Position numbers and translations under genes: made by a program. A model generated the notes under the pieces. The model ran no database searches. It saw nothing but the letters and a program-made list of their open reading frames with translations, and was not told the origin of the DNA. A stretch of DNA of 64,000 nt from Nocardia vinacea (GTDB taxonomy: Bacteria > Actinomycetota > Actinomycetes > Mycobacteriales > Mycobacteriaceae), in contig NZ_CP109149.1 in NCBI RefSeq assembly GCF_035920345.1, positions 9,300,001 through 9,364,000 on the forward strand, read 5' to 3'. Below are positions 35,646-61,308 of the stretch, in pieces (within the stretch, counting starts at the first letter, position 1; the number at the start of each line of letters is the position of its first letter).

Positions 35646-35691
35646 AATAAATAGCCCTGCCGCCGAGGATTTGGCGGCAGGGCTATTTATT
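35646..35691. terminator. bidirectional intrinsic terminator
   Basis: A perfect 19-bp inverted repeat (35646-35664 and 35673-35691) with an 8-nt loop. The inner stem is G/C-rich and the outer arms are A/T-only (AATAAAT and ATTTATT). Read on either strand it ends in a U-rich tail. It lies exactly between the convergent thioesterase and desaturase-like genes and shares their end codons. This is exceptionally clean for GC-rich DNA. Confidence 0.93.
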
Positions 35692-36533
35692 CAGGCCAGC
35701 GCGTTGCACTCTCCGATGAAGCGAACCAGTTCGTCGAGCCGGTCGGATCTGGCATCCACCGTCCGGTCGATTACCTTCACCAGATGCTCGTAGGCCTCGG
35801 TGTGGTCATAGGAGGCCACATCGGCGATCTTCAGCGCCCACCGCCAATAGCCGCGCATGGTATCGGCCAGTGGCATACGGAAATTGGCGATCACATCGCG
35901 GATCGGTTCCACTGTCGCATCGCCCTGCACCCGCAGATACCGCCCGACCACATCGGCCATGAAGCTGAAATGCCTTGCCTCATCGCGAGATAACCGGGCC
36001 AGCACCGACGCGAGAATCGGTTCGTCGACCACATCCCGCAGGTGCTGGTAGTACATCTGGGTCGCCTTCTCCTGCACGAGCGCGTAGGCGAAAAACTGCA
36101 CCGGATGGTCGTAGGGCAGATCGAAGGGCTGCTGGCCCTCGACCGCCAATTCCGCACGGAGAGAACCGCGGTCGGCGATTCCGGCGGCCTCCTGGTAGCG
36201 AGCGAGAGCGCGGGCGTGGGTGTCCTCCTCCAGCGCCCACCGCACGGTGAAGTGATAGAGCTCGCGGTTGTGGATGAAGGTGGTCCGATCCACGGTGTCG
36301 TCCACCGGGAAATGGCGGTGGTACACATCGAAATAGCCGGGCAGATGGTCCTCGATGAGGGTGACGAACTGCACCGCCGAACGCTGCCCCTCGGTGAGCC
36401 GGCCCGCATCGGCGAGCGACCAGTCGAAGGCGGTCTCCACATCCCAGGCGCGCGTGGCCGGGGATGCGGCGAGGAAGCCGTCCACCGCGGCCGCTACCTC
36501 GTCGACCGGAAGCAGAGCCGATTCCATATTCAT
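35691..36533 (-). CDS. acyl-ACP desaturase-like diiron protein (last gene of the lipid operon)
   Basis: A 280-residue all-helical protein with two E-x-x-H motifs: WALEEDTHARAL (E-D-T-H) and SRDEARHFSF (E-A-R-H). This matches the soluble stearoyl-ACP desaturase/ferritin-like diiron class. Another Glu lies in LVQEKATQMYYQH. Such enzymes desaturate or oxidise acyl chains on a carrier protein, in line with the ACP encoded two genes upstream. The gene is 9 bp after the methyltransferase and ends in the terminator. The reaction (desaturation, hydroxylation or other) cannot be told from sequence. Confidence 0.82.
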   Translation of the reverse strand: MNMESALLPVDEVAAAVDGFLAASPATRAWDVETAFDWSLADAGRLTEGQRSAVQFVTLIEDHLPGYFDVYHRHFPVDDTVDRTTFIHNRELYHFTVRWALEEDTHARALARYQEAAGIADRGSLRAELAVEGQQPFDLPYDHPVQFFAYALVQEKATQMYYQHLRDVVDEPILASVLARLSRDEARHFSFMADVVGRYLRVQGDATVEPIRDVIANFRMPLADTMRGYWRWALKIADVASYDHTEAYEHLVKVIDRTVDARSDRLDELVRFIGECNALA

Positions 36534-36542: not shown

Positions 36543-37376
36543 CTACCGGGCATTGCGACAGGTCAGCGCGTAATGCTTGGTCGTATAACCCCATCCGGCA
36601 TTGGCGATCTCCAGATAGTGCCGCAGCTTTGCGGCCAGGCCCGGACCGTGCGCGTCGATGCGCTCGGCGGCCGCGTCGACATTGGCGATCCAGTCATCGA
36701 TGGTGCGGCGGTAGTGCTCGGTGAGGTCGTCCACCGCGATGATGGATAACCCGGTGTCCTCGGCGGCGGTCACCAGCTCCGACAGCGGGCGCAGATCACC
36801 CCAGCCGAAAATGTCCTCGCGAACGAATTCGGTGCCGACACGGGTATCGAAAGCATTGCGGGCGGAGGCATTTCGGAAACAGCTCTCCGAAACATAGAGC
36901 ACGCCGCCACGCCGCAGCACCGACCGTGCGCGCCGGAACACCGCGCCGAGATCGGGCATGTGCACGATCGAGCCGAGCAGGGACACCGCGTCGAAGCTGC
37001 GAACCGGCAGGTCGAGCTCTTCGAAGTGTCCGACCCTGGTGTGCACGCGTTCGGTGACACCACGCGCGACGGCTTGTTCGGCGATGTACTCGTGCTGGCG
37101 CGGTGCCGGGCTGACTCCCATTGTGTCGCAACCGAATTCCTCGGCCATGAACAGGATCAGCGAACCCCAGCCGCAGCCGACATCGAGCAGTCGCTCCCCA
37201 CCGCGCACTCCGAGCCGGTCGGCGACGAAGCGCAGCTTCTGCCGCTGCGCCTGTTCAAGGGTGTCGGTCGACGAATTGTACAGCGCCGAACTGTATTTGC
37301 GCAGCGGGTCGAGGAACTGGCCGAAGATATCCGGATCCAGGTCATAGTGCTGGTTGGTATCGGCGGTGATTGTCAC
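36543..37376 (-). CDS. SAM-dependent methyltransferase
   Basis: A 277-residue protein, start GTG 37376 (VTITADTNQHYDLD) overlapping the ACP stop. It has the class I motif LLDVGCGWGSLILFMAEEFG, then GVSPAPRQHEYI and an FDAVSLLGSIVHMPD motif. The overall shape (DIFGQFLDPLRKY opening and a helical insertion) resembles fatty-acid cyclopropane/methyl-branch and UbiE/geranyl-PP-type methyltransferases. In this operon it probably methylates or cyclopropanates an unsaturated acyl chain, or caps an oxygen; the choice is open. Confidence 0.82.
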   Translation of the reverse strand: MTITADTNQHYDLDPDIFGQFLDPLRKYSSALYNSSTDTLEQAQRQKLRFVADRLGVRGGERLLDVGCGWGSLILFMAEEFGCDTMGVSPAPRQHEYIAEQAVARGVTERVHTRVGHFEELDLPVRSFDAVSLLGSIVHMPDLGAVFRRARSVLRRGGVLYVSESCFRNASARNAFDTRVGTEFVREDIFGWGDLRPLSELVTAAEDTGLSIIAVDDLTEHYRRTIDDWIANVDAAAERIDAHGPGLAAKLRHYLEIANAGWGYTTKHYALTCRNAR

Positions 37377-37633
37377 GCCGCCGCCTCGTGCAGGGCCCGA
37401 TCGACGACTTTGACGACATCCGCGAGCGTGGCGAGACCGAAGACGTCCTGGTCCTCCAGCTCGATGTCGTAGGTGCGTTCGATCTTGGCGACCATGCGCA
37501 GCACGCGCACCGAATCGACGCCCGCCATGCCTCGCAGGTCGACGTCGGGCCGTAGTTCGGCCTCGGCGATGCCGGTCTCGGTGACGGCGATATCGGTGAC
37601 GGTGCGCAGGATGTCGTCGGCGGTGTGGGTCAT
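37373..37633 (-). CDS. free-standing acyl carrier protein
   Basis: An 86-residue four-helix protein with the phosphopantetheine site GVDSVRV (Ser41) in place of the usual DSL. It overlaps the thioesterase stop on one side and the methyltransferase start on the other, each by 4 bp. It is the likely acceptor of acyl groups activated by the fatty acyl-AMP ligase upstream and the platform on which the diiron proteins and methyltransferase act. A phosphopantetheinyl transferase is not in the window. Confidence 0.9.
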   Translation of the reverse strand: MTHTADDILRTVTDIAVTETGIAEAELRPDVDLRGMAGVDSVRVLRMVAKIERTYDIELEDQDVFGLATLADVVKVVDRALHEAAA

Positions 37634-38157
37634 TGCTGAACTCCATTCGAAGAGAGGGCATTCGCGGTGGTCAGTGCGTGGGAGAGCAGGGCGACCTCGT
37701 CGTCGCGGAGGGTTAGTTGATGGCGGACCGCATCGAGTTCGAACGGCTGATAGGCCGCGCTGGAGGTGGCGCAGACGGTGCCGTCGGCGTCCCGGATCTC
37801 GGCCGATGCCTGAATCGGGAGCTGTGTCTCGGATAGCGTTGCCACACAGTGGTATTCGGAGTCGATCAGCAGCGGGGAAATGAATCGGGTGCGCTGCGAG
37901 ACCGTGAATGCGGGATGGTGGCGGGCCAGCACGATGAGATTGCCCATCACCTCATCGCAGATCACACCGATGAGCCCGCCGTGTACCACCCCCGGATAGG
38001 ACTCGAAGCTGCGTCCGAGTCGGAAGTGGGCCTGCAGGCCGTCCGGATGCGGTTCGAACTCGAGTCGCAGCCCGGACGCGTTGTGCGGGGAGCAGCCGAA
38101 GCAGTGGTAGTCCGGAATCACCGACCACGGCACCTGAACCGAGCTGTGTCGTTCCAT
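37630..38157 (-). CDS. PaaI/4HBT-type hotdog thioesterase
   Basis: A 175-residue hotdog-fold protein: YHCFGCSPHNASGLRLEF opening, YPGVVHGGLIGVICDEVMG (active-site HGG..D pattern) and FTVSQRTRFISPLL. It could release the finished acyl chain from the ACP or proofread it. It is coupled to the ACP gene by a 4-bp overlap and lies 3 bp after the diiron protein. Confidence 0.87.
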   Translation of the reverse strand: MERHSSVQVPWSVIPDYHCFGCSPHNASGLRLEFEPHPDGLQAHFRLGRSFESYPGVVHGGLIGVICDEVMGNLIVLARHHPAFTVSQRTRFISPLLIDSEYHCVATLSETQLPIQASAEIRDADGTVCATSSAAYQPFELDAVRHQLTLRDDEVALLSHALTTANALSSNGVQQ

Positions 38158-38160: not shown

Positions 38161-38949
38161 CTAGGCGATCGCGTCAGCGAGGGCGCGGCGGACCTTCGCA
38201 TTGGAGGACAGGTCGAGGCCGGTCATATTGGCAAAGGTGCGACGCACCTTGTCGTGCAGCACATCCAGCTCGCCCTCGGCGGCGACCTGCTCGAGAAACA
38301 GATCGAATCCGGTGTCGATGGTCTCGTGGTCGCCGAGTTCGCTGATACCCGCCTTGAAGGTGCTCACCGGATGCTTGATCTTGGCCTCGGAGCTGTAGAC
38401 ATACAGGGTCTCCAGCACCGAGGGCAACTCCTCGGGCCGCTGCTCCAGCCGCTTCGTCGCGTAGTGGATGAATTCGCGGGCATGTCCGGCCTCATCGCGA
38501 CTCGCATTGAGCAGCAGGCCCTTCAGCACCGGCTCCTGCACCCAGCTCGCGACGGCGCGGTAGATGTGGTTCACCGTGAGTTCGGAGATGATATTGGTGG
38601 CCAGGGTGGCCGAGGGAGTGGTGCCGGGCGCATACGGCTCGCGCATGGAGTCGACGGCCTTCTCGTCCACGCTCTCGCCGACCGCGCCGAGCCAGGAGCG
38701 AAATGCGTAGTGGTGCTGCACTTCCTGGTAGCCCCACACCACGGCGAAGGTGGAGAAGTCGTAGTCGTCGACGAATTCGTTCATGAAGCCGTGTACCGCG
38801 GCGATGACATTGGATTCGCCCATCGTCGCGCTCTTGGCCAGCGTCACGTATTCGGGGCGGACAAGTGCGCGGTCGACGGCGTCGAGGTCCAGATCGGTCA
38901 GCCGCCAATGCAGGCGCTCGTAGTGACGGAAGACTTCATAGCTGTGCAC
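38161..38949 (-). CDS. ferritin-like diiron protein, desaturase family
   Basis: A 262-residue helical protein started at GTG 38949 (VHSYEVFRHYERLHW), which overlaps the FAAL 3' end by 14 bp and has GGAGTC upstream; the longer frame overlaps FAAL sequence heavily. Two diiron-type motifs are visible: YQEVQHHYAF (E-V-Q-H) and SRDEAGHAREF (E-A-G-H). It is related in pattern to the second diiron protein in this operon but differs in size and sequence. Acyl-ACP oxidation is the expected role; the exact chemistry is unknown. Confidence 0.8.
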   Translation of the reverse strand: MHSYEVFRHYERLHWRLTDLDLDAVDRALVRPEYVTLAKSATMGESNVIAAVHGFMNEFVDDYDFSTFAVVWGYQEVQHHYAFRSWLGAVGESVDEKAVDSMREPYAPGTTPSATLATNIISELTVNHIYRAVASWVQEPVLKGLLLNASRDEAGHAREFIHYATKRLEQRPEELPSVLETLYVYSSEAKIKHPVSTFKAGISELGDHETIDTGFDLFLEQVAAEGELDVLHDKVRRTFANMTGLDLSSNAKVRRALADAIA

Positions 38950-40627
38950 AGGAGACTCCAGTTCGGTCGATGCGAATGTCATTGCCGTGGGAGATGAGGT
39001 CGCGGGCGGCGAGGCGCTGCAGTTTGCCGCTGCTGGTGCGTGGAATGCTGCGTGGCGCGACGAGATACACCTCGACTGCGGCCAGCCCGAGTTCGGTGGA
39101 GATGCGGCCGCGGATCTGATCGGCGAGCGCATCTGCCGCCGCGCCGGTGCATTCGGATTCGGCGATCAGCGCGATGACATCCGCGCCGTCGGGATCGGTT
39201 GCGGCGGTGCAGCGGCCCTTGTAGATGCCGTCGAGGTCGCGTACGGCGGCCTCGACATCCTGGGCGTAGTAGTTGACGCCGCGCACGGTGATCATGTCCT
39301 TGCACCGGCCGGTGACGAAAAGTTCGCCATCACGCTGGTAGCCGAGATCACCGGTGCACAGCCAACCTTCGGTATGCAGTCCGGCCACGCTCGACGGGTC
39401 GGCGGTCAGGTAGCCGTCGGTCACCGAGGGGCCTTGGATGTGGATTTCACCGACCGCGCCGTCCGGAAGTTCCACGCCGGTACCGAGGTCCACGATCCGC
39501 AGTCGCAGATCGGCCACGGCGGAGCCGACACCCGCGACGGCACGCGCACCGGGTGTGTCAGGTGAAACAAGCTGCGCCCGAGCGTTATCGGCTAGCGCGG
39601 TGCGGTCGACCCACTCGAACAGCGGCTCCCGGCCGAGCGGTGGGAAGGCTACAGCGAGGGTGGCCTCGGCCATGCCGTAGACCCCGAACATCGTCGACGG
39701 CGCGAAACCGGCGGGCGCGAAACGCTCGCGGAACGCCTCGACCACATCGCGGGCGATCGGTTCGGAACCGTTGAAGGCAATGCGCCAGTGCCGCAGGTCG
39801 TAGTCGGTGACCTCGTCCGCCGGGATGGCATTGAGCAACGCCTCGTAGCCGAAATTCGGCATCGCGGTGATCGTGATGCCGCTGGCCGCGAATTCGGCGA
39901 GCCAGCGGGCCGGATCCTTGACGAATGCCAGCGGCGACCAGACATGTGCCGGGATGCCGCGCAGGATCGCGGACAATGTGCCGAACAGGCCCATATCGTG
40001 GAACAGCGGCAGCCAGAACCCGCCCTGATCGGTGAGATCGAGCGCGATGCCGGTGCGGATCGCGGCAAGGCCACTGAGTGCGTTGTGGTGGGTCAGCCGA
40101 ACGCCTTTGGGGGCGGCGGTGCTGCCGGAGGTGAACTGCACGATGGCCAGGTCGTCGGCGTTGATGGTGGGCAGCGGTGTGCTGTCCTCGGTGAATAGCG
40201 TTGCGGTGTCGACTAATTCGACGTTCACCGCAGTGACGAGCAGCGCGGCGAGCTCGGCGAACCGGTGCGACACCAGCACCGTGCGCATCCCGGCCGCCGC
40301 CACAATGGCCGCGAGCTTCTGTGGATATCCGCTCAGCTGCGCGGAACCGGCGGGCAGGGGCAGGGGAGTGGCGGCACCGCCCGCTGCGGCGACACCGAAC
40401 AGACCGATCAGGAATTCGGGCGCGTTCGGGCACAGAATGCCCACCGGCTCGCCGCGCCGTATCCCACGGCGGACCAGCGCCGCGGCGGTTCCGCGGGACT
40501 GCCGGTCGAGTTCGGCGTAGGTCAGCGTTTCCGACACCGACCAAAAGGTGGCGGCCACCTCGGGATGCTCGGCCGCGACCCGCGCCAGCCGGCCCGGCAG
40601 CGTTTCGACCGATTCCGCAGAATTCAT
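38936..40627 (-). CDS. fatty acyl-AMP ligase (FAAL)
   Basis: A 563-residue adenylate-forming enzyme from ATG 40627 (MNSAESVETLPG). It has the P-loop VQFTSGSTAAPKGVRLTH, FHDMGLFG, GVYGMAEATLAV, and the WLCTGDLGY and GRCKDMI motifs. It belongs to the FAAL branch (the PLFHDMG and AFNGSEPI motifs are typical), which makes acyl-adenylates and transfers them to carrier proteins rather than CoA. As first gene of the operon it would load the ACP. The frame extends to 41905 without homology and that part is a shadow of the divergent P450. Confidence 0.9.
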   Translation of the reverse strand: MNSAESVETLPGRLARVAAEHPEVAATFWSVSETLTYAELDRQSRGTAAALVRRGIRRGEPVGILCPNAPEFLIGLFGVAAAGGAATPLPLPAGSAQLSGYPQKLAAIVAAAGMRTVLVSHRFAELAALLVTAVNVELVDTATLFTEDSTPLPTINADDLAIVQFTSGSTAAPKGVRLTHHNALSGLAAIRTGIALDLTDQGGFWLPLFHDMGLFGTLSAILRGIPAHVWSPLAFVKDPARWLAEFAASGITITAMPNFGYEALLNAIPADEVTDYDLRHWRIAFNGSEPIARDVVEAFRERFAPAGFAPSTMFGVYGMAEATLAVAFPPLGREPLFEWVDRTALADNARAQLVSPDTPGARAVAGVGSAVADLRLRIVDLGTGVELPDGAVGEIHIQGPSVTDGYLTADPSSVAGLHTEGWLCTGDLGYQRDGELFVTGRCKDMITVRGVNYYAQDVEAAVRDLDGIYKGRCTAATDPDGADVIALIAESECTGAAADALADQIRGRISTELGLAAVEVYLVAPRSIPRTSSGKLQRLAARDLISHGNDIRIDRTGVSCAQL

Positions 40628-40852
40628 GTCTGCCACCACAACAGCGAATTGTGACAGCGCATTGAACACATTGTGAATTACGGTCTGCGATAAACAAGCG
40701 CGATCATTCAATCGCGTTGCCCGATACGGTATTCGGGCTATGGCGCGATAGGAACGGACAATCGTCGCCGTACCGCCGGGTGCGACGGCACCACGATGGA
40801 CCGGAATTGTTTTCGCCCGGTTTCCATTTCGCATTCCATTCAGGAGTTGCCG
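40628..40852. promoter_or_regulatory. divergent promoter region between the FAAL operon and the P450 block
   Basis: A 225-bp non-coding gap between two divergent transcription units, with relatively AT-rich stretches (40660-40720). It must hold both promoters, so a single regulator could control the whole lipid cluster from here. No clear operator repeat could be fixed by eye. Confidence 0.5.
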
Positions 40853-42091
40853 GTGAGTTCCGACCATTCCGCGGTCGAGGAGTTGACCCCGGTTCAGCTG
40901 GCCGTCGTCGAGAGCGTCGCACCGCATATGCGACACAATCCGTATGACAGTTATGCGGTGCTGCGTGACGCGGGCCCCTTCGTGCCCGGGCCGCACGACA
41001 TGCACTTGGTGACCCGTCACCACGAGGCACAGACGATCATGCAGGACCCGCGCTGGAGCCACGCCGAGGAACCGCAACTGCTGCACGGCGACAGCGATGT
41101 CGAACTGCCCGGCTCGTTCCTCTGGATGGAGCCGCCGGAGCACACTCGGCTGCGCGGACTGGTCAGCAAGGCATTCACCGCGCGCACCGTCAGCGGCATG
41201 CGGGACAGGGCCGAAAAGTTGGTCGACGATCTGCTGGCGAAGATGCTCGCCGCGGGCGAGGTCGATCTGCTGGATGCGCTGGCCTATCCGCTGCCGCTCA
41301 CCATGGTGTGTGAGCTGCTCGGCGTCCCGGCCGAGGCGCATGAGCACGTGCGTCAGATCTCGACCGGAATCGCTCGCGGCCTCGATCCGGATCTGCTGCT
41401 CTCGCCCGCGGAATTGGCCGCACGCACCGCGGCGGTGCACGCCTTCCTGGAGTTCTTCGGCGAGCTGGTGGAGCAGCGCCGCAAATCCCCACGCGACGAC
41501 CTGATCACGGCGCTGGTGCAGGCCGATGATGCGGGCGCCCGGCTGACCCGCACTGAATTGCTCGGCACGCTGCTGATTCTCGTGGTCGCCGGGCACGAGA
41601 CGACCGTCAACCTGATCGGCAACGGTGTGCTCGCGCTGATCCGCAATCCGGAGCAGTTCGAGCGGCTGCGCGAATTCCCGGAGCTGTGCGAATCCGCCGT
41701 CGACGAGGTGCTGCGCTACGACGCGCCGGTGCACCTCACCACTCGCACGGCGCACGACGTGATCACCGTTTCCGGGCGGACTTTCGCACCCGGTGATGCG
41801 GTGATCGTCCTGCTGGCCTCGGCCAACCGCGACCCGCTCGCCTTCCCGGATGCCGACAAGTTCGATATCGCGCGATACGCCGGGGGTCGAAAGGCCGAGC
41901 GGCACTTATCTTTCGGCCTCGGCCTGCACTACTGCCTCGGTGCGCCGCTGGCCCGGCTGGAGATGCAGGTGGTGCTGCGCGCCATCGCCGATCGTGTCGG
42001 TGCCATGACCCTGCTCGAGGAACCGCCGTATCGGCCGAATGTGGTCGTGCGCGGCATGTCCGAACTTCATGTGCGGCTGGAGGGCCGATGA
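40853..42091 (+). CDS. cytochrome P450 (first of three in the cluster)
   Basis: A 412-residue bacterial class I P450 started at GTG 40853 (VSSDHSAVEE) with AGGAG upstream. Standard motifs are present: LVVAGHETT (I-helix), EVLR (K-helix EXXR) and FGLGLHYCLGAPLA (Cys361 heme ligand). It shares SHAEE and FLWMEPPEHTRLR with the P450 at 44888, so the two are close paralogues. It is coupled by ATGA to the next P450. Substrate unknown; oxidation of an acyl chain is likely from context. No ferredoxin gene is beside it. Confidence 0.92.
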   Translation: MSSDHSAVEELTPVQLAVVESVAPHMRHNPYDSYAVLRDAGPFVPGPHDMHLVTRHHEAQTIMQDPRWSHAEEPQLLHGDSDVELPGSFLWMEPPEHTRLRGLVSKAFTARTVSGMRDRAEKLVDDLLAKMLAAGEVDLLDALAYPLPLTMVCELLGVPAEAHEHVRQISTGIARGLDPDLLLSPAELAARTAAVHAFLEFFGELVEQRRKSPRDDLITALVQADDAGARLTRTELLGTLLILVVAGHETTVNLIGNGVLALIRNPEQFERLREFPELCESAVDEVLRYDAPVHLTTRTAHDVITVSGRTFAPGDAVIVLLASANRDPLAFPDADKFDIARYAGGRKAERHLSFGLGLHYCLGAPLARLEMQVVLRAIADRVGAMTLLEEPPYRPNVVVRGMSELHVRLEGR

Positions 42092-43299
42092 ACACAGCAA
42101 TTCCGATTACGTTCGATGCCTTCGATCCCAGCGAGCGGGCGGACCCGTATCCGGCATACCGTCGGGTGCGCGATGCCGCCGCACTGTTCCCGTACGAATT
42201 CGGCGATGTGCCGGTCACTTTGATCACCCGATACGAGGAATGCGCCGCCATCCTGACCGGCTCGGACTGGGGTCACGGCTATGCCGCCGGAATCAGCCCG
42301 TTCCGCGACACCACCGCCGCGATTCCGGGCTCCTTCGTCCGAATGGACCCGCCGGAACACGGCCGCTACCGCAAGCTGGTCGCGAAGGCGTTCACGCCGC
42401 GGCTGATGGCGGAGATGGTTCCGGTGGCCGGTCAGGTTGTCAGCGACCTGGTCGACGCGGCGGTGCGTCGTGGTGAGCTGGATGTGCTCAACGATCTCGC
42501 CGTTCCCCTCGCGGTGGCGATGGTGCCGGTCCGGCTGCTCGGCGCCGATCCGGCCGATGGCGCACTGTTCCGCGAGTGGCAGCTGGCGATCGCGCGGGGC
42601 AGTGATCCGGATTCGCTGCTCGGCCCGGACGAGGTGGCCGCACGCGGCACCGCGGCGATGGAGTGCATGGGCTACTTCGCCCGGCTGATCCAGCAGAAGA
42701 AGGCGAATCCGACACCGGATCTGCTGAGCGCGCTGGTGGCCGCGAGCGGTGCGCAGCTGACCGAGCCCGAGGTGATCGGGATCGCGCTGCTGACGCTGGT
42801 CGCAGGCATGGAGACCTCGATCAACCTGATCGGCAACGGCATGCTCGCACTGCTGCGCAATCCGGCTCAGCTGCAGCTGCTTCGGGACAATCCGGAGTTG
42901 ATCGGTCCGTCGCTGGACGAGATGCTGCGCTACGACGCCCCGACCCAGTTCACCATCCGAGTCGCCTTGGCCGACACCACCGTCGGTGAGCACGAATTCC
43001 GTCGCGGCGACGGCGTGGTCGTACTCACTGCCTCGGCCAGCCGGGACGATCGGGTATACCCGGACGCGGACACCTTCGATGTCACTCGCTACGCCGGAAA
43101 CCGACCGGCGCGCAAGCATCTCGGCTTCAGCCTCGGCATCCACTATTGCGTCGGTGCACCGCTCGCGCGCATCGAGGCGCAGGCGACCCTCGGCACCCTG
43201 CTCGACCGGGCCCCGAAACTCGAACTCGCTACCGACACCGTCGAACACCGGCCCAGCCTGATCCACCGCGGCATCGTGTCGCTGCCGGTGTCCTTGTGA
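42088..43299 (+). CDS. cytochrome P450 (second)
   Basis: A 403-residue P450 with LVAGMETS (I-helix; Met replaces the usual His), EMLR (EXXR) and FSLGIHYCVGAPLA (Cys354). It overlaps the preceding P450 by 4 bp. A pair of degenerate repeats begins at its stop codon. It is more distant from the other two P450s of the cluster than they are from each other. Confidence 0.92.
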   Translation: MNTAIPITFDAFDPSERADPYPAYRRVRDAAALFPYEFGDVPVTLITRYEECAAILTGSDWGHGYAAGISPFRDTTAAIPGSFVRMDPPEHGRYRKLVAKAFTPRLMAEMVPVAGQVVSDLVDAAVRRGELDVLNDLAVPLAVAMVPVRLLGADPADGALFREWQLAIARGSDPDSLLGPDEVAARGTAAMECMGYFARLIQQKKANPTPDLLSALVAASGAQLTEPEVIGIALLTLVAGMETSINLIGNGMLALLRNPAQLQLLRDNPELIGPSLDEMLRYDAPTQFTIRVALADTTVGEHEFRRGDGVVVLTASASRDDRVYPDADTFDVTRYAGNRPARKHLGFSLGIHYCVGAPLARIEAQATLGTLLDRAPKLELATDTVEHRPSLIHRGIVSLPVSL

Positions 43300-43446
43300 G
43301 CGCGCGAGCAACCAACGCGGCCGACCTCGGTCGGGACGAGCCGAGCGTTGGCGAGGCGGAGGTATGAGCGAGCGCGGCGAGCGAACCACGAACACAGCCG
43401 AGCTCTCGCTCGTGCCGGAGCTGAGCGCCGGCGAGGCGGAGTCATG
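43297..43446. repeat. two tandem MIRU-like intergenic elements
   Basis: Two degenerate units (43297-43364 and 43365-43446), each starting with TGAGCG at a stop-codon-like TGA and ending with GGCGAGGCGGAG(G/T) followed by an ATG. They fill the gap between the P450 stop and the flavoprotein start, so the TGA of the P450 and the ATG of the next gene are the borders. A related unit occurs at 50385-50454. This is the behaviour of mycobacterial MIRU-type elements that insert at coupled ATGA junctions. Confidence 0.6.
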
Positions 43447-46150: not shown

Positions 46151-46158
46151 GTTGCGCT

Positions 46159-47322: not shown

Positions 47323-47410
47323 GTCCTTCGATAGGCCATGACATTCGCGCGGTAGGAACCTCTGTATCGGCGGGGACGTAATTCGTTGCCGCCGACCAGA
47401 ATTCGACATT

Positions 47411-54000: not shown

Positions 54001-57000
54001 TGTATCAGCCCTACGACTCGGGCTCGGACGCACTCGACAGTGCGCTCGTACAGCACCTACAGACCCACCGTCAGTTCCTCGACGGGCAGCTGGATATGGC
54101 CCGCAACCTGGCCGGGGCGCTCGGCAATGGATCGCTCGACGAGGCGACCGTGCGGGCGATCGAAGCCGTGAAGGATCACGGTGTGGCGATCAGTGAAAGT
54201 CATTCGCGGGCAAATGAAGTGCTCGCGCAGTTGGCGGAGCTGGAGGGTGGATTCGCGCCTGTTGCGCGGACGGCGGCCGTGACGCGGCGGGTGGAGTCCA
54301 CTCGGCAGGCGGCCATCGAGTCGGCGCCTGAGCGTCGGCCGTTGGCTCCGAAAGGCGTCGGCGCATCGGGTGCTGCCGAAACCGATGCGGCGCATTCGGG
54401 GATCTCCACCAACGGTGGACCGGTCACTCCGGAGAGTGGCACTTCCGCCGCTCCCCAGCTCAACGGTGGCGTCGCCGCTGCTCCCGAGTTCCAGGCCAAT
54501 GGTGGTGCGGCTGCTAGGGAGTCCGGAGGTGGCGCGGTATCCAGTTCTCAGGCCGCATCCACCGACGCACTGCTGAGCGCGTTGCGGGAGGTCGTGGCCG
54601 AGAAGACCGGGTATCCGGTGGAGATGGTGGATCCGTCGATGGATCTGGAGGCCGATCTCGGGGTGGATTCGATCAAGCGGGTTCAGGTGATCGGGGCGCT
54701 GCAGGAGCTGTTCCCGCAGCTGCCGAACCTCGGGCCGGAGCAGTTGGGGACGCTGCGGACGCTCGATCAGATTGCGAGTTTGCTGGGTGCGGGTGGGGCG
54801 GCCTCGGAGGGGTCGGGCGCGCCTACGGCGGCTCCCGGAACCGCTGGGCCGACTGCACCTGCGGTTGCCGGAACTGCTGGGGCGGCTGCGGTTGGTGCCG
54901 AAGCTGCTGTACCTGCCGGAGCTGCTGCGGCGGCCGGTGCCGGAAACACCTCGGCGGCCGCACCCACGGGTGACGACCTGCGGATCGCGTTGCGGGAGGT
55001 CGTCGCCGAGAAGACCGGCTATCCGGTCGAAATGGTGGATCCGTCGATGGATCTGGAGGCCGACCTCGGGGTCGATTCGATCAAGCGGGTTCAGGTGATC
55101 GGCGCACTCCAGGAACGGTTTCCGGACTTACCCAGCCTCGGTCCGGAGCAGCTCGGCACGCTACGCACAGTGGATCAGATCGTCGACGAGCTCGCGACGT
55201 CGGTGGGCGGTGATGTCCACCCAAAAGCTGAGGCCGCGGCCGAAACGCCGCGGTATGCCGTCGAACTGATCACCCTGCCGTCGCTGGACCGGGCCGTTGC
55301 CCCATATCGCGAGGGCGGTGTGGTCGCGCTGGTCGACCTCACCGGCCAGGCGGATGCAGACTGCGCCGCCATCGAATCCGTGCTCACCGAGCAGGGCTGG
55401 TCGGTGCATCGGACGGATTCGGCAGGCCTGTCGGATCTCGATTCCGTCGATGCCTTCCTCGCGGTGCTGAGCTGTGAGTTCGCCGATTGGGAGGCCGCGC
55501 AGCGGTGGCTCGGCGCCGCCGTGCTGACCGCCGGTCATGCGGTGCCGCGCCTCGCGAAGACCGCTGATCGGGCGGCGTTCGTCACGGTGACCCGGATCGA
55601 CGGTCACCTCGGCTTCCTCGGCACGGCGGGTCCGATTGCCGCACTGCTCGGCGGTGTCGGCGGTGTCGTGAAAACCCTTGCGGCCGAACAGCCCGCGCTG
55701 TTCTGCCGGGCACTGGACATCGACCCGGAAATCACACCGGCGCGACTGGCCGAGCTGGTCACCGCGGAGTTGCACGACGCCGCACGTGACACGCTCGAGG
55801 TCGGTATCGATGCGGCTGAGCAGCGCAGGACGCTGGTGCCCAGTGCACATGCGCCCGCCCGTTCGGTCAGCATCGTGCGTCACGCGCAGGGGCCGAGTGT
55901 ACTTACAGCACAGGATGTTCTGCTCGTCACGGGTGGTGCGCGTGGCGTCACCGCCACATGTGTCAGAGCGCTGGCACAGCGGAGCGATGCGCGCTTCGTC
56001 CTGCTCGGTCGTTCCGAGCTGACACCTGAACCGGACTGGGCTGCAGGCGTTTCCGATGCCGAGCTCAAGGCTGCGGCGGTGCGCGCACTCGCCGGCACCG
56101 GAGCAAAGCCGCGCGATATCGAGCGTGCGTGCGCGCAAATACGGGCCACCCGCGAAATCAGCGAAACGTTGACCGAATTGGGTTCGCGGGCAGAGTATCT
56201 GGCCGTCGATGCCACCGACGAGGCGGCGGTACGCACCGCACTCGCACCGTGGCGCGACACCATAACCGGCGTCGTGCACGGGGCAGGTGTGCTGGCGGAC
56301 TCCATGATCACCGACAAAACAGCCGAATCCATCGAGCGGGTACTGGATCCCAAGATCTCCGGGCTGGCCACCGTGCTGGCCGCACTCGGCGAACTACGGC
56401 ATCTGGTGCTGTTCACCTCGGTGGCCGGACTGTTCGGTAACACGGGTCAGGCCGACTACGCGGCCGCGAACGAGGCGCTGTCTCGATTCGCGGTGAGCTA
56501 TCGGCGGCGCTATCCCGACTGCCACGTCACCGCGATCGACTGGGGTGCCTGGGACGGCGGCATGGTGACGCCCGAACTGCGCGAGCATTTCCACGCTCGC
56601 GGCATCGCCCTGCTGGACCCAGAGACGGGTGCGGCGGCCTTCACCGAACAGTTCACCGCGGACCGACGTGACGATGCGGTAGTACTGATCGGTCCAGCCG
56701 AAAGTCTCACGGGCGATACGACAGTCGATCCACCCGCGATACAGGCCCGGCGGATCATCACCGGGCTCACCGACGATCCGATTATCCAGGCGCACCGAAT
56801 CGGCGAACATATCGTGCTACCAGCCACGTTCGGCATCGGCGCGATGGTGAATCTGGCCGAGCGCAGCTTGCCCGGCCGAATGGTCGTCGGTGCCAGGGGT
56901 TTCCAGGTCCTCAAGGGAATCGTGTTCGATCATCCGCTGGATGAGCTCGAACTCGAACTCGTCCCCGGCGAGTCTGTCGATGGCCTGGCGCTGGTCGAGG

Positions 57001-57557
57001 CGGCTGTCCGCAGTGACGATGCGCTGCATTTCCGGGCGACACTGCTGCTGGCTGCCGAACCCGATCAGCCGCCGACCAAGGCGATCCCGACCGGCTCGGT
57101 CAGCGACGCGAATATCTACCGCGATGCCATCCAGTTCCACGCGCCCGCCCTCCAGGGCCTGCGCACGGTACTGGCGGCCTCGGACGAGGCGATCGTCTTC
57201 GAATGCGCCTTGCCCGCCGCGCGAGTGGCCGACGGCGCCTACGCCGGCCGCCTGCACGACCCGGTCCTCGCCGACCTGATCTTGCAGGGCCCACCGGTGC
57301 TGGGCTACCGACTCCTCGGAGCGGCCTGTCTGCCACTGGGCGTCGGTCGCGTGGACTACTACGGGCAGCTGCCCACGGACGAGCCGTTCCTGCTCACCGT
57401 GGACAACCCACGGCCCGGCAGCTTCGATGTCCGGATCGACGCCACCGCGACAACACCGGATGGGACAGTGCTGCAACGCTTCTCGGACGTCACCGTGGTG
57501 ACGACGCCGGATCTGACCGCGAAATTCCAGGCTTCGGTCCGGGGGTGGATGGCATGA
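51087..57557 (+). CDS. PUFA-synthase-like multidomain protein (PfaA-like): KS-AT-ACP-ACP-KR-DH-like
   Basis: A 2156-residue iterative synthase from GTG 51087 with GAGAGGA upstream. The ketosynthase (about 5-460) has Cys211 in DAACAAS, His346 and His386. The acyltransferase (about 555-880) has GHSFGE (Ser663). Two tandem ACP domains have DSIKR phosphopantetheine sites at Ser1195 and Ser1331, joined by an Ala/Gly/Pro-rich linker. The ketoreductase (about 1610-1880) has VTGGARG, Ser1778 and Tyr1791. The last 245 residues form a dehydratase-like hotdog region with a degenerate H-x-x-x-P pattern (His1908). This order matches PfaA of bacterial PUFA synthases, here with two ACPs. The DSIKR motif is the PUFA type, not the DSL of ordinary PKS. 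Confidence 0.92.
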   Translation: MTDDRRLARNPIAIVGMSGLLPNAHNHREYWQNIVDGVDCTTEVPTSRWSLDDYFDADPDAPDKTYSRRGAFLPDIDFDPLEFGLPPNQLEVTSTMQTLSLGVARDLLIDAGAVDSAWYDPGKTGVVLGTTGPVPLMHPLAARLSTPVLKEAARSVGLSDTDADAIADKFVAAFAPWEANSFPGLLANITAGRVANRLGLGGINCTVDAACAASLAALRTAIAELQDGRADMMITGGVDTENTIFIYMCFSKVGALSANGQISPFSSDANGTLLGEGITMLALRRLEDARRDGNRIYAVIRGLGSSSDGRAKSIYAPRAGGQRVALDRAYADAECSPADVALIEAHATGTPVGDKTELTALKSVLSDATSESRFAALGSVKSQIGHTKGAAGTASVMKLALALHQKVLPGTINVDAPNAEIAPDDAPYYVNTRTRPWIRDPQRPVRRAAASAFGFGGTNFHVVLEEADSGRTEPVLHRTARAHLWHAPDVAGLVDAVRSVDGIDGGDIPEDHARIGFVSVDDENAAHLRALAVDELVRNPEAVAWDHPEGVYFRAAALPERKIGALFAGQGSQYVDMGADAALSNPAVGAAFDAANIAFAGAPVRLSSVVFPPPAFDEETSSKQETSLRRTEFAQPAIGALSSGQFRALADRGFRADGYLGHSFGELTALWAAGAVGTEDFFALARARGAAMTPAAGVEAGTMVALGASREIAEELLTGVDDVWICNHNAPDQVVVGGGPEGIAAVVERAGARGVATRALPVSGAFHTPYVAHAVDAFADATAAVTIGAPDAPVYANTPDARYGDDVAANRALLTGQLSKPVEFVAALTAMRADGCTVFVEFGPKQVLTSLVRRTLGDDVVAIPTDSGPIGNSDLALVRAAVRLAVLGFGLHGINRHAAPLPASRTSNRAMTVTISAPEYVPESRRAAYAAALDDGYRVSVAAPTPVDTVVDPQPETLPVAATFAEPTETTVYQPYDSGSDALDSALVQHLQTHRQFLDGQLDMARNLAGALGNGSLDEATVRAIEAVKDHGVAISESHSRANEVLAQLAELEGGFAPVARTAAVTRRVESTRQAAIESAPERRPLAPKGVGASGAAETDAAHSGISTNGGPVTPESGTSAAPQLNGGVAAAPEFQANGGAAARESGGGAVSSSQAASTDALLSALREVVAEKTGYPVEMVDPSMDLEADLGVDSIKRVQVIGALQELFPQLPNLGPEQLGTLRTLDQIASLLGAGGAASEGSGAPTAAPGTAGPTAPAVAGTAGAAAVGAEAAVPAGAAAAAGAGNTSAAAPTGDDLRIALREVVAEKTGYPVEMVDPSMDLEADLGVDSIKRVQVIGALQERFPDLPSLGPEQLGTLRTVDQIVDELATSVGGDVHPKAEAAAETPRYAVELITLPSLDRAVAPYREGGVVALVDLTGQADADCAAIESVLTEQGWSVHRTDSAGLSDLDSVDAFLAVLSCEFADWEAAQRWLGAAVLTAGHAVPRLAKTADRAAFVTVTRIDGHLGFLGTAGPIAALLGGVGGVVKTLAAEQPALFCRALDIDPEITPARLAELVTAELHDAARDTLEVGIDAAEQRRTLVPSAHAPARSVSIVRHAQGPSVLTAQDVLLVTGGARGVTATCVRALAQRSDARFVLLGRSELTPEPDWAAGVSDAELKAAAVRALAGTGAKPRDIERACAQIRATREISETLTELGSRAEYLAVDATDEAAVRTALAPWRDTITGVVHGAGVLADSMITDKTAESIERVLDPKISGLATVLAALGELRHLVLFTSVAGLFGNTGQADYAAANEALSRFAVSYRRRYPDCHVTAIDWGAWDGGMVTPELREHFHARGIALLDPETGAAAFTEQFTADRRDDAVVLIGPAESLTGDTTVDPPAIQARRIITGLTDDPIIQAHRIGEHIVLPATFGIGAMVNLAERSLPGRMVVGARGFQVLKGIVFDHPLDELELELVPGESVDGLALVEAAVRSDDALHFRATLLLAAEPDQPPTKAIPTGSVSDANIYRDAIQFHAPALQGLRTVLAASDEAIVFECALPAARVADGAYAGRLHDPVLADLILQGPPVLGYRLLGAACLPLGVGRVDYYGQLPTDEPFLLTVDNPRPGSFDVRIDATATTPDGTVLQRFSDVTVVTTPDLTAKFQASVRGWMA
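54580..55180. repeat. tandem ACP-domain repeat inside the synthase gene
   Basis: The two ACP-coding segments share two perfect blocks: 32 nt (54624-54655 against 55032-55063) and a further 29 nt over the phosphopantetheine site. Identity at third codon positions shows a recent duplication or gene conversion. The segment between them encodes a low-complexity Ala/Gly/Pro/Thr linker. Confidence 0.85.
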
Positions 57558-59716
57558 CGATGCTCGAATTCGACGGGGTTCCGTTCGATCTGGTCGGCGC
57601 TGCTGCCGTCCGGGGCACGTCGGCGCTTGTGGTCCAGGAAAGTCCGGCGGCGCTGGGAAGCCCGGCAGCGCAGGGAAGCCCGGCGGCACAGGAAAGCCGG
57701 GGGGCCCAGGGAAGCCCGGGGGCGCACGAAACGTCTTCGGCGCACCAAACATCTGCGGGGAGCGGGACGCCTGGGGTGCATCAAATGTCTGTGGGGAGCG
57801 GGACGCCTGGGGTGCATCAAATGTCTGCGGGGAGCGAGGCGCCAGAGGCGCACCGAACGCCTGCGGTGCACGAAGTTGCGATGCCGACGGTGACCGCACT
57901 GCCACATTTGCACACCCAGGGACCGCTTACCGAGATTCGTTCGGGCGTCGTCGCCGCGCACCGCGCCGCGCTGAACGCCCAGGTCGCAATGCAACGGGCG
58001 ATATGGCAGCGGACTGCGCGCCCGCAGACCCCCGATACGGCAACGGAACAGCGGCGCAGCGGATCGCCCATCTTCGGCGCACGCATCGCTGCCGCACCGG
58101 AGTGGGCATTCAAGCCGCCGGCCCGCACCACGCGGACCAGTCTGGATCGCGCGGCATTGCTACGCCTCACCGAGGGTGATGTCACCGGTGTGTTCGGATA
58201 TCGGCGCTCCGGCGTCGAATCCGTCGCGCGACTATCGGCGGCGGGTCCCTTGGTGCTCACCGAGGTAGTAACTATCGAACTGCGCGGTGGCACCGGGCAC
58301 GGTCGCGTGGTCGCACATTTCGACGGCGATACGTGGGCGGCTGCGGTACAGGCGGCGGAGGTGTTCGCACTGTGCACCGGAATGCACCTGTGCCTCTCGC
58401 GGAGCACGTTCGCCAGCATGCCCGGTACGGCGGAAAGTGCAACTGGCACAGTTGAATTCGTAGTCTCCGATATCGACCTGGTGCCCCGACCGCATGTCAC
58501 CGGCACCGCGACCATCGCGGGTACCGCTCCGCTCCAGGTCACCGTGACGGTGGCCGAACCGGCGGGCGCGGGCGTCGGCCCAGGTGCCGCCGTACCTGGC
58601 CTACTGCTCAACGAATTCCACATGACCCACCTCGCCCGCGGCGATCAAGCCATCGCCATGGGACCCGAATTCGCCGAATACACGGGCGTCCGAGCGACCC
58701 GCCTACCGACGGGCGGGCTGCTCCTGGTCGACCGTGTTCTCGAATTCGACGGTGCCCGTGGCAAATTGGATGGCGCGACGTACCGTACCGAATACGATTC
58801 ACCCGCCGATTCCTGGTACTACGGCGATACCGCCAACGAATCCATGCCGCATTTCGTGTACATGGAGACCTCGCTGCAGGCGGCGCTGCTGATGGGCTAC
58901 TACGCCGGTCCCACGCTCACCCAGCCGGGTGTCACCCTGAGCCTGCGCAACCTCGGCGGCACTGCGACCGTCCTGCGCCAGGTAGATCTGCGGGACAAGA
59001 CGATCGAGCAGACCTCGCGCCTGCTGTCGACGACGATCCTGCCCGGCTCGTCACTGCAGAATTTCGACTACACGCTGAGTGTGGACGGTGAACCGTTCTA
59101 TACCGGCGAGACCATGTTCGGGTACTTCAGCGACGAAGCACTGGCGAACCAGACCGGCCTCGACGCCGGACGGTCCGTCCCGACCTGGCTGGACGAGCAT
59201 CCGCAAGCCACCCGCACCATCGACGTCGCCGCTCGCCGCTCGGATCCGAATGCCCGGCTGTGTGCGCGACGCACCCTGGCACTGATCGATCGGATCGACG
59301 TGGTCGACGGCGGCGGAAAACACGGTGCGGGATATCTGCATTCACTACGCGAAATCGACCCGGCGGACTGGTATTTCGCCCGCCACTTCCACCTGGACCC
59401 GGTGATACCGGGATCGCTCGGAGTGGAATCGGTCATCCACGCCATCCAGGAGTGGATGCTCGATGCCGGATTCGCCGACACCATCGGCGATCCGGTCTTC
59501 CGCATCCCCAGCGATATCGCCTTCAGCTGGCGCTACCGCGGCCAATTCCTGCCGACCGACGCAACGGTGCGGCTGGAGGCGCACATCAAGGAAGTCCGCA
59601 GGGGCGCAAACGGTGTCACCGTCATCACGGACGGTTCGCTGTGGAAGCCGGGGCTGCGCATCTACGAACTGGTCGATCTGGCAATCGAACTCGGTGAGCG
59701 AGAGGAGCGGCCGTGA
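57554..59716 (+). CDS. PfaC-like double dehydratase (FabA-type DH-DH) without chain-length factor
   Basis: A 720-residue protein starting at an ATGA overlap with the synthase. Residues about 25-110 are a low-complexity repeat. Two FabA-like hotdog dehydratase domains follow. The first contains TEYDSPADSWYYGD and MPHFVYMETSLQAALLMGYY; the second contains ARHFHLDPVIPGSLGVES, where His611 or His613 of the H-F-H motif is the catalytic candidate. In PUFA synthases the PfaC protein is KS-CLF-DH-DH. Here the KS-CLF part is missing, so the N-terminal region is replaced by the repeat-rich segment. It should install the double bonds during chain growth. Confidence 0.88.
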   Translation: MTMLEFDGVPFDLVGAAAVRGTSALVVQESPAALGSPAAQGSPAAQESRGAQGSPGAHETSSAHQTSAGSGTPGVHQMSVGSGTPGVHQMSAGSEAPEAHRTPAVHEVAMPTVTALPHLHTQGPLTEIRSGVVAAHRAALNAQVAMQRAIWQRTARPQTPDTATEQRRSGSPIFGARIAAAPEWAFKPPARTTRTSLDRAALLRLTEGDVTGVFGYRRSGVESVARLSAAGPLVLTEVVTIELRGGTGHGRVVAHFDGDTWAAAVQAAEVFALCTGMHLCLSRSTFASMPGTAESATGTVEFVVSDIDLVPRPHVTGTATIAGTAPLQVTVTVAEPAGAGVGPGAAVPGLLLNEFHMTHLARGDQAIAMGPEFAEYTGVRATRLPTGGLLLVDRVLEFDGARGKLDGATYRTEYDSPADSWYYGDTANESMPHFVYMETSLQAALLMGYYAGPTLTQPGVTLSLRNLGGTATVLRQVDLRDKTIEQTSRLLSTTILPGSSLQNFDYTLSVDGEPFYTGETMFGYFSDEALANQTGLDAGRSVPTWLDEHPQATRTIDVAARRSDPNARLCARRTLALIDRIDVVDGGGKHGAGYLHSLREIDPADWYFARHFHLDPVIPGSLGVESVIHAIQEWMLDAGFADTIGDPVFRIPSDIAFSWRYRGQFLPTDATVRLEAHIKEVRRGANGVTVITDGSLWKPGLRIYELVDLAIELGEREERP
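57639..57870. repeat. in-frame minisatellite in the dehydratase gene
   Basis: A 36-bp unit encoding GSGTPGVHQMS-A/V occurs as two near-identical full copies (57752-57787 and 57788-57823) and a partial third. Before it are shorter degenerate G/C-rich units encoding GSPAAQ-like repeats. Unit length is a multiple of three, so copy-number changes keep the frame. It lies outside the folded domains and could vary between strains. Confidence 0.8.
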
Positions 59717-61308
59717 CCGCATTGTCAACCACCGTCGTCGCGGAAACCGCCGACGACATCACGGCCGTACTGCTCGACGTGCGGCAACCGTGCTGGATCG
59801 TGCGGCACGACGGCCGGATGGGCGCGACCTCGGATGCGGCGGTCGCGGCACGATCGCAGGTACTCACCGCGGTCGCGCCGCTGCCGCCGGAGTTGCTAGG
59901 GGACAGAAAGTTCCACGTGGCTCACGGCGTGCGCGCGGCATACGCGGCAGGTGCGATGGCCAATGGCATCGCCGCTCCGGCCTTGGTTGCGGCGATGGCG
60001 CGTGCGGGCTACCTGGCGTCATATGGTGCGGCCGGGGTGACGCCCCCGGCGGTGGATGCGGCGCTGGCCGAGCTCAGTTCGCTGGGAAAGCCCTTTGCCT
60101 GCAATCTGATTCACAGTCCGTCCGAACCGGCGCTGGAACGCGCGATCGTCGATTCCTGCCTGCGCCACCGTGTGCGCTGCGTAGAGGCCTCGGCATTCAT
60201 GGGCCTGACCACCGAGGTCGTGCGATACCGGGCGGCGGGCCTCGGCATCGACCGGCACGGCCGGATCGAGGTGCGCAATCGCCTGATAGCCAAGGTGTCC
60301 CGAGTCGAGGTCGCGGAACCCTTCTTGCGACCGGCACCTGTCGCTCTGCTGCGCCGATTGGTCGAATCCGGTGATCTGACACCGGAACAGGCCCGCTTGG
60401 CCGAACATGTGCCGATGGCCGACGACATCACCGCGGAAGCCGATTCCGGCGGCCACACCGACCGTAGGCCGTTGCTCGTGCTGTTCCCGGAACTGGTCGC
60501 CGCGCGCGATCGGATTGCCACCACCGTGCCCGCGGCGGCGGCGGTGCGGATCGGTGCTGCCGGCGGTATCGGCACCCCCGCCGCCGCTGCGGCGGCCTTC
60601 GCGCTCGGTGCCGCCTATGTGGTGACGGGATCGATCAACCAGGCCACCCGCGAGGCGGCCCAGTGTGAAACAACCAAACAGCTACTGGCCCGAGCGGATT
60701 TCGCCGACTGCACGATGGCGCCATCCTCCGACATGTTCGAACTCGGTGTGCAGGTCCAGGTCCTGCGCCGCGGCACCATGTTCGCCGCCCGCGCCCAGCG
60801 CTTGTACGACACCTACCGCGCCTACGCCGGGTTGGACGACATCCCCGCCGACCTACGCCGCGACCTCGAGGCAACCCTCTTCCGGCGGCCACTGGAGACG
60901 GTATGGCAGGACTGCGTCGCCTACTTCACCGAACGTGACCCCGGACAGTTGGCCGGCGCGGACGAAGATCCAAAACGCAAGATGGCCTTGGTATTCCGGT
61001 GGTATCTCGGGTTGTCCTCCGGCTGGAGCATCCGCGGCGAAGCCGACCGTACCGCCGACTACCAGATCTGGTGCGGCCCCGCCATGGGCGGCTTCAACAA
61101 CTGGGTCGCCGGAACCTACCTGGCCGCCCTCGACAACCGCCACGCAGCCGACATAGCCGACCAAATGATGCTGGGCGCGGCCTATCTCACCCGAATCGCG
61201 CAACTCCGCACCGCAGGCGTACGCCTACCAGCCGAATGCACCCGCTTCGTGCCGCGACCCATACAGCAGCCAGCTGGCCGAGCTGGCCGCGTCGAAAGCC
61301 GTTGCTGA
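59713..61308 (+). CDS. PfaD-like enoyl reductase
   Basis: A 531-residue TIM-barrel flavoprotein with a GTGA overlap to the dehydratase gene. Typical PfaD features: FACNLIHSPSEPALE, CVEASAFMGLTTEVVRYR, RIGAAGGIGTPAAAAAAFALGAAYVVTGS (nitronate-monooxygenase-like FMN-binding part), MAPSSDMFELG and a conserved WCGPAMGGFNNWV late motif. PfaD reduces enoyl-ACP intermediates in trans for PUFA synthases. It completes the KS/AT/ACP/KR + DH-DH + ER set and is the last gene of the operon. Confidence 0.92.
   Translation: MTALSTTVVAETADDITAVLLDVRQPCWIVRHDGRMGATSDAAVAARSQVLTAVAPLPPELLGDRKFHVAHGVRAAYAAGAMANGIAAPALVAAMARAGYLASYGAAGVTPPAVDAALAELSSLGKPFACNLIHSPSEPALERAIVDSCLRHRVRCVEASAFMGLTTEVVRYRAAGLGIDRHGRIEVRNRLIAKVSRVEVAEPFLRPAPVALLRRLVESGDLTPEQARLAEHVPMADDITAEADSGGHTDRRPLLVLFPELVAARDRIATTVPAAAAVRIGAAGGIGTPAAAAAAFALGAAYVVTGSINQATREAAQCETTKQLLARADFADCTMAPSSDMFELGVQVQVLRRGTMFAARAQRLYDTYRAYAGLDDIPADLRRDLEATLFRRPLETVWQDCVAYFTERDPGQLAGADEDPKRKMALVFRWYLGLSSGWSIRGEADRTADYQIWCGPAMGGFNNWVAGTYLAALDNRHAADIADQMMLGAAYLTRIAQLRTAGVRLPAECTRFVPRPIQQPAGRAGRVESRC

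Follow-up and report, generated by a model that had tools for sequence, protein, structure and literature searches.

We have analysed a 64,000-nt stretch of the Nocardia vinacea genome (NCBI RefSeq assembly GCF_035920345.1, contig NZ_CP109149.1, positions 9,300,001-9,364,000), which is called the window below and sits on a single 10.36-Mb contig. A region of about 26 kb in the window was found by profile search to encode 18 genes, of which 11 constitute a left module (FAAL, FER, HOT, ACP, CMA, DES, HOT2, P450a-c and FADa) and seven a right module (LysR, ACS, FADb, SGNH, PfaA, PfaC and PfaD). The region is a recurring two-module lipid cluster, in which a synthase of the polyunsaturated fatty acid (PUFA) type most likely feeds a portable cassette that tailors chains bound to an acyl carrier protein (acyl-ACP). 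Judging from the protein families, the probable result is a polyunsaturated fatty acid that is oxidised and decorated after its assembly. An initial annotation of the DNA had proposed that about 26 kb of it form one candidate cluster, both halves included, with an oxidised unsaturated lipid as the product, and this proposal stands; every gene that it named has been recovered by profile search at the place given to it, and HOT2, a hotdog thioesterase at the left end, is to be added to its gene list. A search with Rfam at gathering thresholds gave no match in the 64-kb window, and no tRNA was found in it.

The two modules and their control regions

The right module lies wholly on the plus strand and is headed by a LysR-type regulator gene (46390..47322; Pfam LysR_substrate E 1.1e-31, HTH_1 E 8.1e-21). 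This is followed by ACS, a FadD-like long-chain acyl-CoA ligase (47411..49087; AMP-binding E 1.3e-73), FADb, a flavin monooxygenase of the monooxygenase/halogenase superfamily (49137..50387; FAD_binding_3 E 1.4e-25; PDB 3e1t, a halogenase, E 4.1e-21), and SGNH, a hydrolase with GDSF, GVND and DGLH blocks and intact catalytic motifs, which is a candidate releasing thioesterase (50452..51057; Lipase_GDSL_2 E 2.3e-22). The nearest relatives of FADb with solved structures are named halogenases, but the WxWxIP motif was not seen by eye, and because of this we prefer to regard FADb as a monooxygenase.

The synthase itself is encoded by three genes linked by 4-base overlaps. PfaA (51087..57557) has the domain order KS-AT-ACP-ACP-KR, with KS, AT, KR and two PP-binding stretches assigned by profile and all catalytic motifs intact, and reaches 1537.9 bits with TIGR02813 (cut-off 1010.1). 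The PfaC-like protein (57554..59716; 720 aa) is a FabA-type dehydratase only (FabA E 2e-31); no family besides FabA was matched at E up to 1 and no KS-CLF was detected by profile, so that the synthase appears to have one KS. PfaD (59713..61308), the enoyl reductase subunit, gives 604.9 bits with TIGR02814 (cut-off 449.25). PfaA with KS, AT, tandem ACP and KR, PfaD, and FabA in the PfaC position are the parts expected of a Pfa-type secondary lipid synthase; the KS-CLF in PfaC that is expected of a canonical eicosapentaenoic/docosahexaenoic acid (EPA/DHA) synthase was not found. PfaE, the dedicated phosphopantetheinyl transferase, was not among the family hits of the cluster, the genome outside the cluster not having been searched. 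In 12 of the 20 loci L002-L021 (L005, L006, L009, L011 and L013-L020), a gene for an acetyl-CoA carboxylase of the ACCA/Carboxyl_trans type comes after PfaD. Such a gene was not found in the 2.7 kb past PfaD (61309 onward) in the window, and a dedicated gene for malonyl-CoA supply is therefore missing at this place.

In the left module, six genes on the minus strand overlap or stand a few bases apart. FAAL (38936..40627; AMP-binding E 1.1e-65) is a fatty acyl-AMP ligase according to its top NCBIfam model, which is matched at 378.9 bits, under the cut-off of 600. It is followed by FER (38161..38949), a ferritin-like diiron protein; by HOT (37630..38157), a hotdog-fold protein resembling a thioesterase or a dehydratase (Pfam 4HBT E 1.9e-4); and by ACP (37373..37633), a stand-alone acyl carrier protein with the serine motif GVDSVRVL (PP-binding E 1.6e-12), which was masked by an over-long CMA frame and was detected via translation. 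CMA (36543..37376) is a CMAS-type S-adenosylmethionine-dependent methyltransferase, with cyclopropanation or C-methylation as the predicted reaction (Pfam CMAS E 5.4e-46), and DES (35691..36533) resembles soluble diiron acyl-ACP desaturases (Pfam FA_desaturase_2 E 1.2e-16; PDB 1za0, DesA2, E 2.2e-8), the family in which it is placed by 60.9 bits against a cut-off of 22.7. FAAL and ACP together have the composition of a loading pair, with the FAAL models matched below curated cut-offs. Beyond DES, the module is terminated by HOT2 on the plus strand (about 35178..35645), a 4HBT-family hotdog thioesterase (Pfam 4HBT E 2.8e-19 for the open reading frame read from 35160).

The assignment of FER depends on its fold and its ligand residues. 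The protein exceeds no curated family cut-off, including those of the desaturase profiles, and Pfam gives only Rubrerythrin at 21.2 bits against a cut-off of 22.8. Its structure model, with a mean pLDDT of 88.6, has a diiron helical fold to which acyl-ACP desaturases are the best PDB matches (TM about 0.65, rmsd about 7 Å, 12-15% identity), and R2-like ligand-binding oxidases are a close second. The six expected metal ligands (E59, E90, H93, E137, E167 and H170) are invariant in 39 sequences, namely the window protein and 38 relatives picked among 120 listed of the 321 found; the nearest named relatives belong to Nocardia vinacea and N. pseudovaccinii (99% identity). As profile and model indicate, FER and DES are two different soluble diiron acyl-ACP-type enzymes encoded in one operon. 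A second FER paralogue, about 50% identical, is present in many genomes of one family outside Nocardia (f20, see below), and in G196, the only such place that was read, it adjoins an ACP gene.

On the other side of the divergent gap, the plus strand carries P450a (40853..42091; Pfam p450 E 9.9e-34), P450b (42088..43299; E 2e-24), FADa (43444..44796) and P450c (44888..46150; E 1.6e-32). FADa is a flavin epoxidase of the Lsd18/LasC/MonCI type (PDB 8up4, Lsd18/LasC, E 9.2e-56; MonCI E 5.9e-51), whose kinship with Lsd18 extends over nearly its full length (residues 3-428 of 451).

The initial annotation had given the exact coordinates of the divergent gap (40628..40852, without strand) but had taken it for one promoter gap common to both units. 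The gap serves the FAAL operon and the P450a operon only, and the right unit comes with a separate LysR and separate gaps (46151-46389 and 47323-47410). When gaps were compared among genomes, conserved CTATCG/TTATCG elements were recognised in the divergent gap, where CTATCG or its complement is present in 30 of 33 rows and absent in three; in these rows the FAAL ends were cut from an out-of-frame query, whereas the ends of the window's own gap are from the correct frame. In the gap between LysR and ACS (47323..47410, without strand), CGATAG occurs at 47329 in the window and is found in all 12 Nocardia rows, and also in G390 and G196 at another place. After LysR, CTATCG/CGATAG is absent in four of 18 sources, all of them cases where the LysR used in the comparison does not adjoin ACS, and upstream of LysR it is found in three of 18 sources only. 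Several rows are near-identical or from close relatives, some sources being the same genome twice (L080 and G151), and the hexamer occurs 24 times in the 64-kb window. The element in both control regions is compatible with an action of LysR on both modules; for shared regulation and a common LysR operator it is suggestive only.

Linkage of the modules across genomes

A two-module cluster is supported by the co-occurrence of FER and PfaD. Among 150 Nocardia genomes, PfaD (E <= 1e-60) was found in 77 and FER in 54; all 54 genomes with FER carry PfaD, versus 23 of the 96 without FER (Fisher p 1e-22, not corrected for ancestry). When PfaD is counted only at 74% identity or more, the figures are 50 of 54 and 3 of 96. 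The two genes share a contig in 39 of the 54 genomes, at a distance of 14.6-81.8 kb, and are on different contigs in the other 15 assemblies. Of these 39 genomes, 14 resemble the window in having the Pfa unit on the FAAL/P450 side and 25 have it on the DES side, and these two arrangements, together with the variable distances, mean that order and spacing change while proximity stays.

Similar results were obtained with an even sample of the class, consisting of 394 genomes: FER was found in 31 and PfaD in 48, and PfaD is present in 25 of the 31 genomes with FER versus 23 of the 363 without it. The 29 FER-bearing sample genomes outside Nocardia all belong to family f20, which we suspect to be Pseudonocardiaceae, and 24 of them carry PfaD (E <= 1e-30), two (G381 and G473) as fragments only. 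Ten f20 genomes have FER and PfaD on one contig, and in nine of them the closest pair is 19-39 kb apart. PfaD was also found in all 10 genomes that were checked via their loci (seven non-Nocardia, three Nocardia); in Streptomyces sp. AJS327 the homologue is only 48% identical.

From one scan for FER in named genomes, 47 named loci were obtained, for which HOT2 and FER were read from first codons slightly different from those given above. FAAL and a stand-alone ACP are both within 4.5 kb of FER in all 47, and 46 have all six genes of the core FAAL-FER-HOT-ACP-CMA-DES; DES is missing in L061, where the stretch ends. A HOT2 homologue (>50% identity) is present in 43. FADa (at least 65% identity) was found in 52 of the 54 FER-bearing Nocardia, as 47 long and five partial matches, and is missing in G005 and G006; it is present also in Actinokineospora sp. 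NBRC 105648 and A. iranica.

The halves are contiguous in other genera too. In Actinokineospora enzanensis, A. auranticolor, A. sp. NBRC 105648 (G153) and Thermocatellispora tengchongensis (G151), the left core and HOT2 are followed by right-module genes, as far as SGNH in A. enzanensis, the start of PfaA in A. auranticolor, and PfaD in the other two. G390 holds HOT2, the core, one P450, LysR, ACS, FADb, SGNH, PfaA, PfaC and PfaD within about 23 kb. Near-complete clusters recur in Actinokineospora, Thermocatellispora and family f20 genomes.

The modules occur apart as well. We have read stretches of nine of the 23 Nocardia genomes with PfaD and without FER. In three of them (G085, G114 and G131) the right module is present with its seven genes, and the stretches read contain no left gene; in five others (G057, G074, G060, G119 and G018) the Pfa loci are more distant or partly covered. 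G099 has kept part of the left module, namely HOT2, DES, CMA, ACP, P450c, a fragment of HOT and a short FADa; its stretch yielded no FER, FAAL, P450a or P450b. Separate conservation of the halves had been named in the initial annotation as the observation that would count against one cluster. It was not seen in Nocardia, where FER is accompanied by PfaD throughout; the modules are nevertheless separable, each being found alone in some genomes.

The surroundings of Pfa-free left cores were read in G258 and G289. The core of G258 is followed by genes for an SDR protein, a sulfotransferase-family protein, a pyridoxal phosphate (PLP) enzyme of the aminotransferase I/II family, which may be an oxoamine synthase, and an AMP-binding/ACP/reductase protein. 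This locus (L120-L121) represents a second cluster type built on the same six-gene cassette, and a PfaD was not found in this genome. G258, G289 and G399 are grouped in one clade (100/97) of the FER tree, next to relatives that carry Pfa genes; this is consistent with a single swap or loss, whose direction the tree leaves unfixed.

Other genes have been observed near the left module. A transporter set of the binding-protein ABC type is close to it in G043 (L046-L047; by Pfam), G005 (by homology), and G258 and G289 (by eye), and the family hits of the window cluster include no such set. In the window, a separate locus (29018-32769) encodes an FxsB-type cyclophane-forming radical SAM maturase with a fused alpha-ketoglutarate-type HExxH hydroxylase domain (29112-31628) and a second HExxH hydroxylase (31615-32769). 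Just upstream of FxsB, a 50-aa open reading frame (29018-29170) ends with SFSSALI and looks like an FxsA-type precursor. FxsB and the second hydroxylase also adjoin the left module in G121.

A proposed pathway and the rival explanations

From the protein families we infer a series of reactions, with their order, the targets of the regulator and the product. PfaA, PfaC and PfaD, acting iteratively with a single KS, would assemble a polyunsaturated acyl chain, bound to the tandem ACPs of PfaA. SGNH would free the chain, FADb would oxidise it and ACS could activate it. The substrate adenylated by FAAL would be a fatty acid, with the released Pfa product as the most likely one, and FAAL would load it on the stand-alone ACP, where FER and DES, as putative diiron acyl-ACP oxidases, would desaturate or oxidise the bound chain. 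CMA is predicted to modify a double bond with a methylene or methyl group, FADa to epoxidise an alkene, and P450a-c to hydroxylate or oxidise the chain further, before HOT/HOT2 would unload the finished chain. LysR probably controls both modules. To this single pathway, in which the Pfa product is released and then tailored by the left module, we give about an even chance of being correct. The strongest argument for the serial order is that Nocardia FER is found only with PfaD, whereas right modules are found also alone.

Several observations weigh against this pathway and bear on three rival explanations. Some of them concern the association of the modules: PfaD is only 61-63% identical in four of the 54 FER-bearing Nocardia, FER and PfaD are 1.2 Mb apart in G246, and other DNA lies between P450c and LysR in two genomes, 44 kb in G001 and 27 kb in G128. 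These inserts, together with the control region that each module has of its own and the occurrence of each module alone, are what would be expected of two adjacent independent clusters, one a widespread locus for a Pfa lipid and the other a locus for acyl tailoring, that have stayed close because the region has a common ancestry. We consider this improbable because none of the 54 FER-bearing Nocardia is without PfaD, relative order varies between genomes while proximity is kept, and the modules are contiguous in genera of other families. An accidental neighbourhood, retained here as a rival, has been set aside as the principal explanation by the co-occurrence and the cross-genus contiguity. 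We also considered whether the two inserts hold an assembly line missing between the halves. Among the genes they share are those for MFS, amidase, amino acid permease, proline dehydrogenase and aldehyde dehydrogenase proteins (five G128 copies were identified), with a proline-catabolism block; the exclusion of an assembly line is incomplete because the remaining insert open reading frames were not identified.

Other points concern the substrate of the left module. FER was found and PfaD was not in G258, G289, G399, G504 and G417 (87% complete), and in G258 and G289 the core is kept with P450a, P450b and HOT2, without PfaD and without FADa. This Pfa-free left core is the strongest point against the serial pathway, and because of it models with a tailored primer or with two chains are real rivals; moreover, since other enzymes stand beside the G258 core, its substrate need not be a Pfa chain. 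The left module might accordingly tailor an ordinary fatty acid on ACP and pass the unusual primer to the KS of PfaA for extension. A core kept without PfaD can act on another acid, and a single-KS synthase in which no KS-CLF is detectable would be well matched to a task in which a preformed primer is extended only a few times. We regard this reverse order as rather unlikely, because seven-gene right modules are found without left genes in the stretches read, so that a tailored primer is not required, and because SGNH and ACS suggest that a free acid exits the synthase.

FAAL and ACS are both kept, and a single chain does not need both. Two such activation systems, two kinds of possible release enzyme (HOT/HOT2 and SGNH) and the existence of each module alone in some genomes could point to two acyl parts made apart and then joined as an ester, an amide or a mixed lipid. 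With the exception of the AT domain of PfaA, no enzyme that could obviously join two chains, such as an acyltransferase or a condensation domain, is among the family hits of the cluster; this speaks against two chains, and we hold this explanation to be quite unlikely. The oxidation set is also variable: no FADa was seen when stretches of A. enzanensis, A. auranticolor, Thermocatellispora (G151) and G390 were read, and a single P450 is present in that of G390.

Tentatively, and with less confidence than we place in the serial pathway, we suggest that the left genes may be a portable acyl-ACP tailoring cassette, which would be coupled to a PUFA-type synthase or to another pathway (one with a PLP enzyme and a reductase) and would have spread between actinobacterial families as a unit. 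Its operon would then hold a CMAS methyltransferase and two soluble diiron acyl-ACP oxidases of different kinds besides FAAL and ACP. Where it is coupled to the synthase, the cassette, with the P450s and, in most Nocardia carriers, the epoxidase, could lead to a cyclopropane- or methyl-bearing epoxidised polyunsaturated lipid. For further study, the cluster provides two soluble diiron enzymes of the acyl-ACP type, both as yet uncharacterised, and a polyether-type epoxidase whose substrate would be a fatty chain. PUFA-type synthases occur in many actinobacteria, a PfaD homologue being present in 48 of the 394 sampled genomes, and the tie of such a synthase, across genera, to a defined tailoring set turns an orphan into a testable pathway, for which genomes with a single module provide natural controls for two clean modules.

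Comparison with known systems

The initial annotation knew of no described product with this gene set. No description of the gene set or of a linked tailoring module was found among open-licence PubMed Central papers, as judged by their titles and the openings of their abstracts; for the synthase the statement has to be modified, because one with this design is already known as an orphan PUFA-type polyketide synthase (PKS) in Nocardia (PMC4035055). The type I PKS cluster #11 of Nocardia (pfaA; BMC Genomics 2014), as presented in the cluster description of that paper, encodes a KS/AT/ACP/ACP/KR protein with the same domain order as PfaA here, and a polyunsaturated fatty acid was predicted from it, none having been found in Nocardia strains (PMC4035055). 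The same description covers the synthase alone and mentions no module with FAAL, ACP, diiron proteins, P450s or an epoxidase (PMC4035055). N. brasiliensis, a host of cluster #11, carries both modules, on separate contigs (L053/G157). On the basis of domain order and species, rather than of compared sequences, we infer that cluster #11 and the right module are the same locus. In two Nocardia genome surveys (PMC7413640 and PMC12153302), the terms 'PUFA', 'hglE' and 'PfaA' do not occur in the main text, and two papers on PUFA-synthase hybrids (PMC13291983 and PMC12964715) do not contain 'Nocardia', 'desaturase' or 'P450'.

Types of Pfa synthases with uncharacterised products have been surveyed (PLoS One 2011; PMC3098273). 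According to its section on types, with which we compared our cluster by description only, the secondary lipid (Pfa) synthases share homologous PfaA and PfaD with the present one and are expected to give a fatty acyl product; the PfaC here differs from them in having no detectable KS-CLF. That section describes no tailoring module, and 'P450' is absent from the main text (PMC3098273). The marine EPA/DHA synthases (pfaABCDE) are also similar with respect to PfaA and PfaD, for which TIGR02813 and TIGR02814 are matched above cut-off, and differ in that neither PfaB nor PfaE is among the family hits of our cluster and that its PfaC is without KS-CLF.

With regard to the tailoring enzymes, the polyether epoxidases Lsd18/LasC and MonCI are the closest kin of FADa among solved structures. 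These enzymes act in modular PKS pathways, whereas the family hits of our cluster include neither a modular PKS nor an epoxide hydrolase. Amycomicin is a fatty-acid-type metabolite. As in our cluster, its pathway, in the account given in PMC13273461, combines an epoxide with three P450s; unlike there, no isonitrile-forming enzyme is among our family hits, the gene clusters themselves not having been compared. The arrangement proposed here has a parallel in JamA/JamB, as these are described in PMC11837247. The oxidases of our cluster are different in being soluble ferritin-like diiron proteins, accompanied by CMAS, P450s and an epoxidase and followed by no nonribosomal peptide synthetase or modular PKS. 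In both systems a stand-alone FAAL loads, or in our cluster would load, a stand-alone ACP, and a desaturase then acts on the acyl-ACP (PMC11837247).

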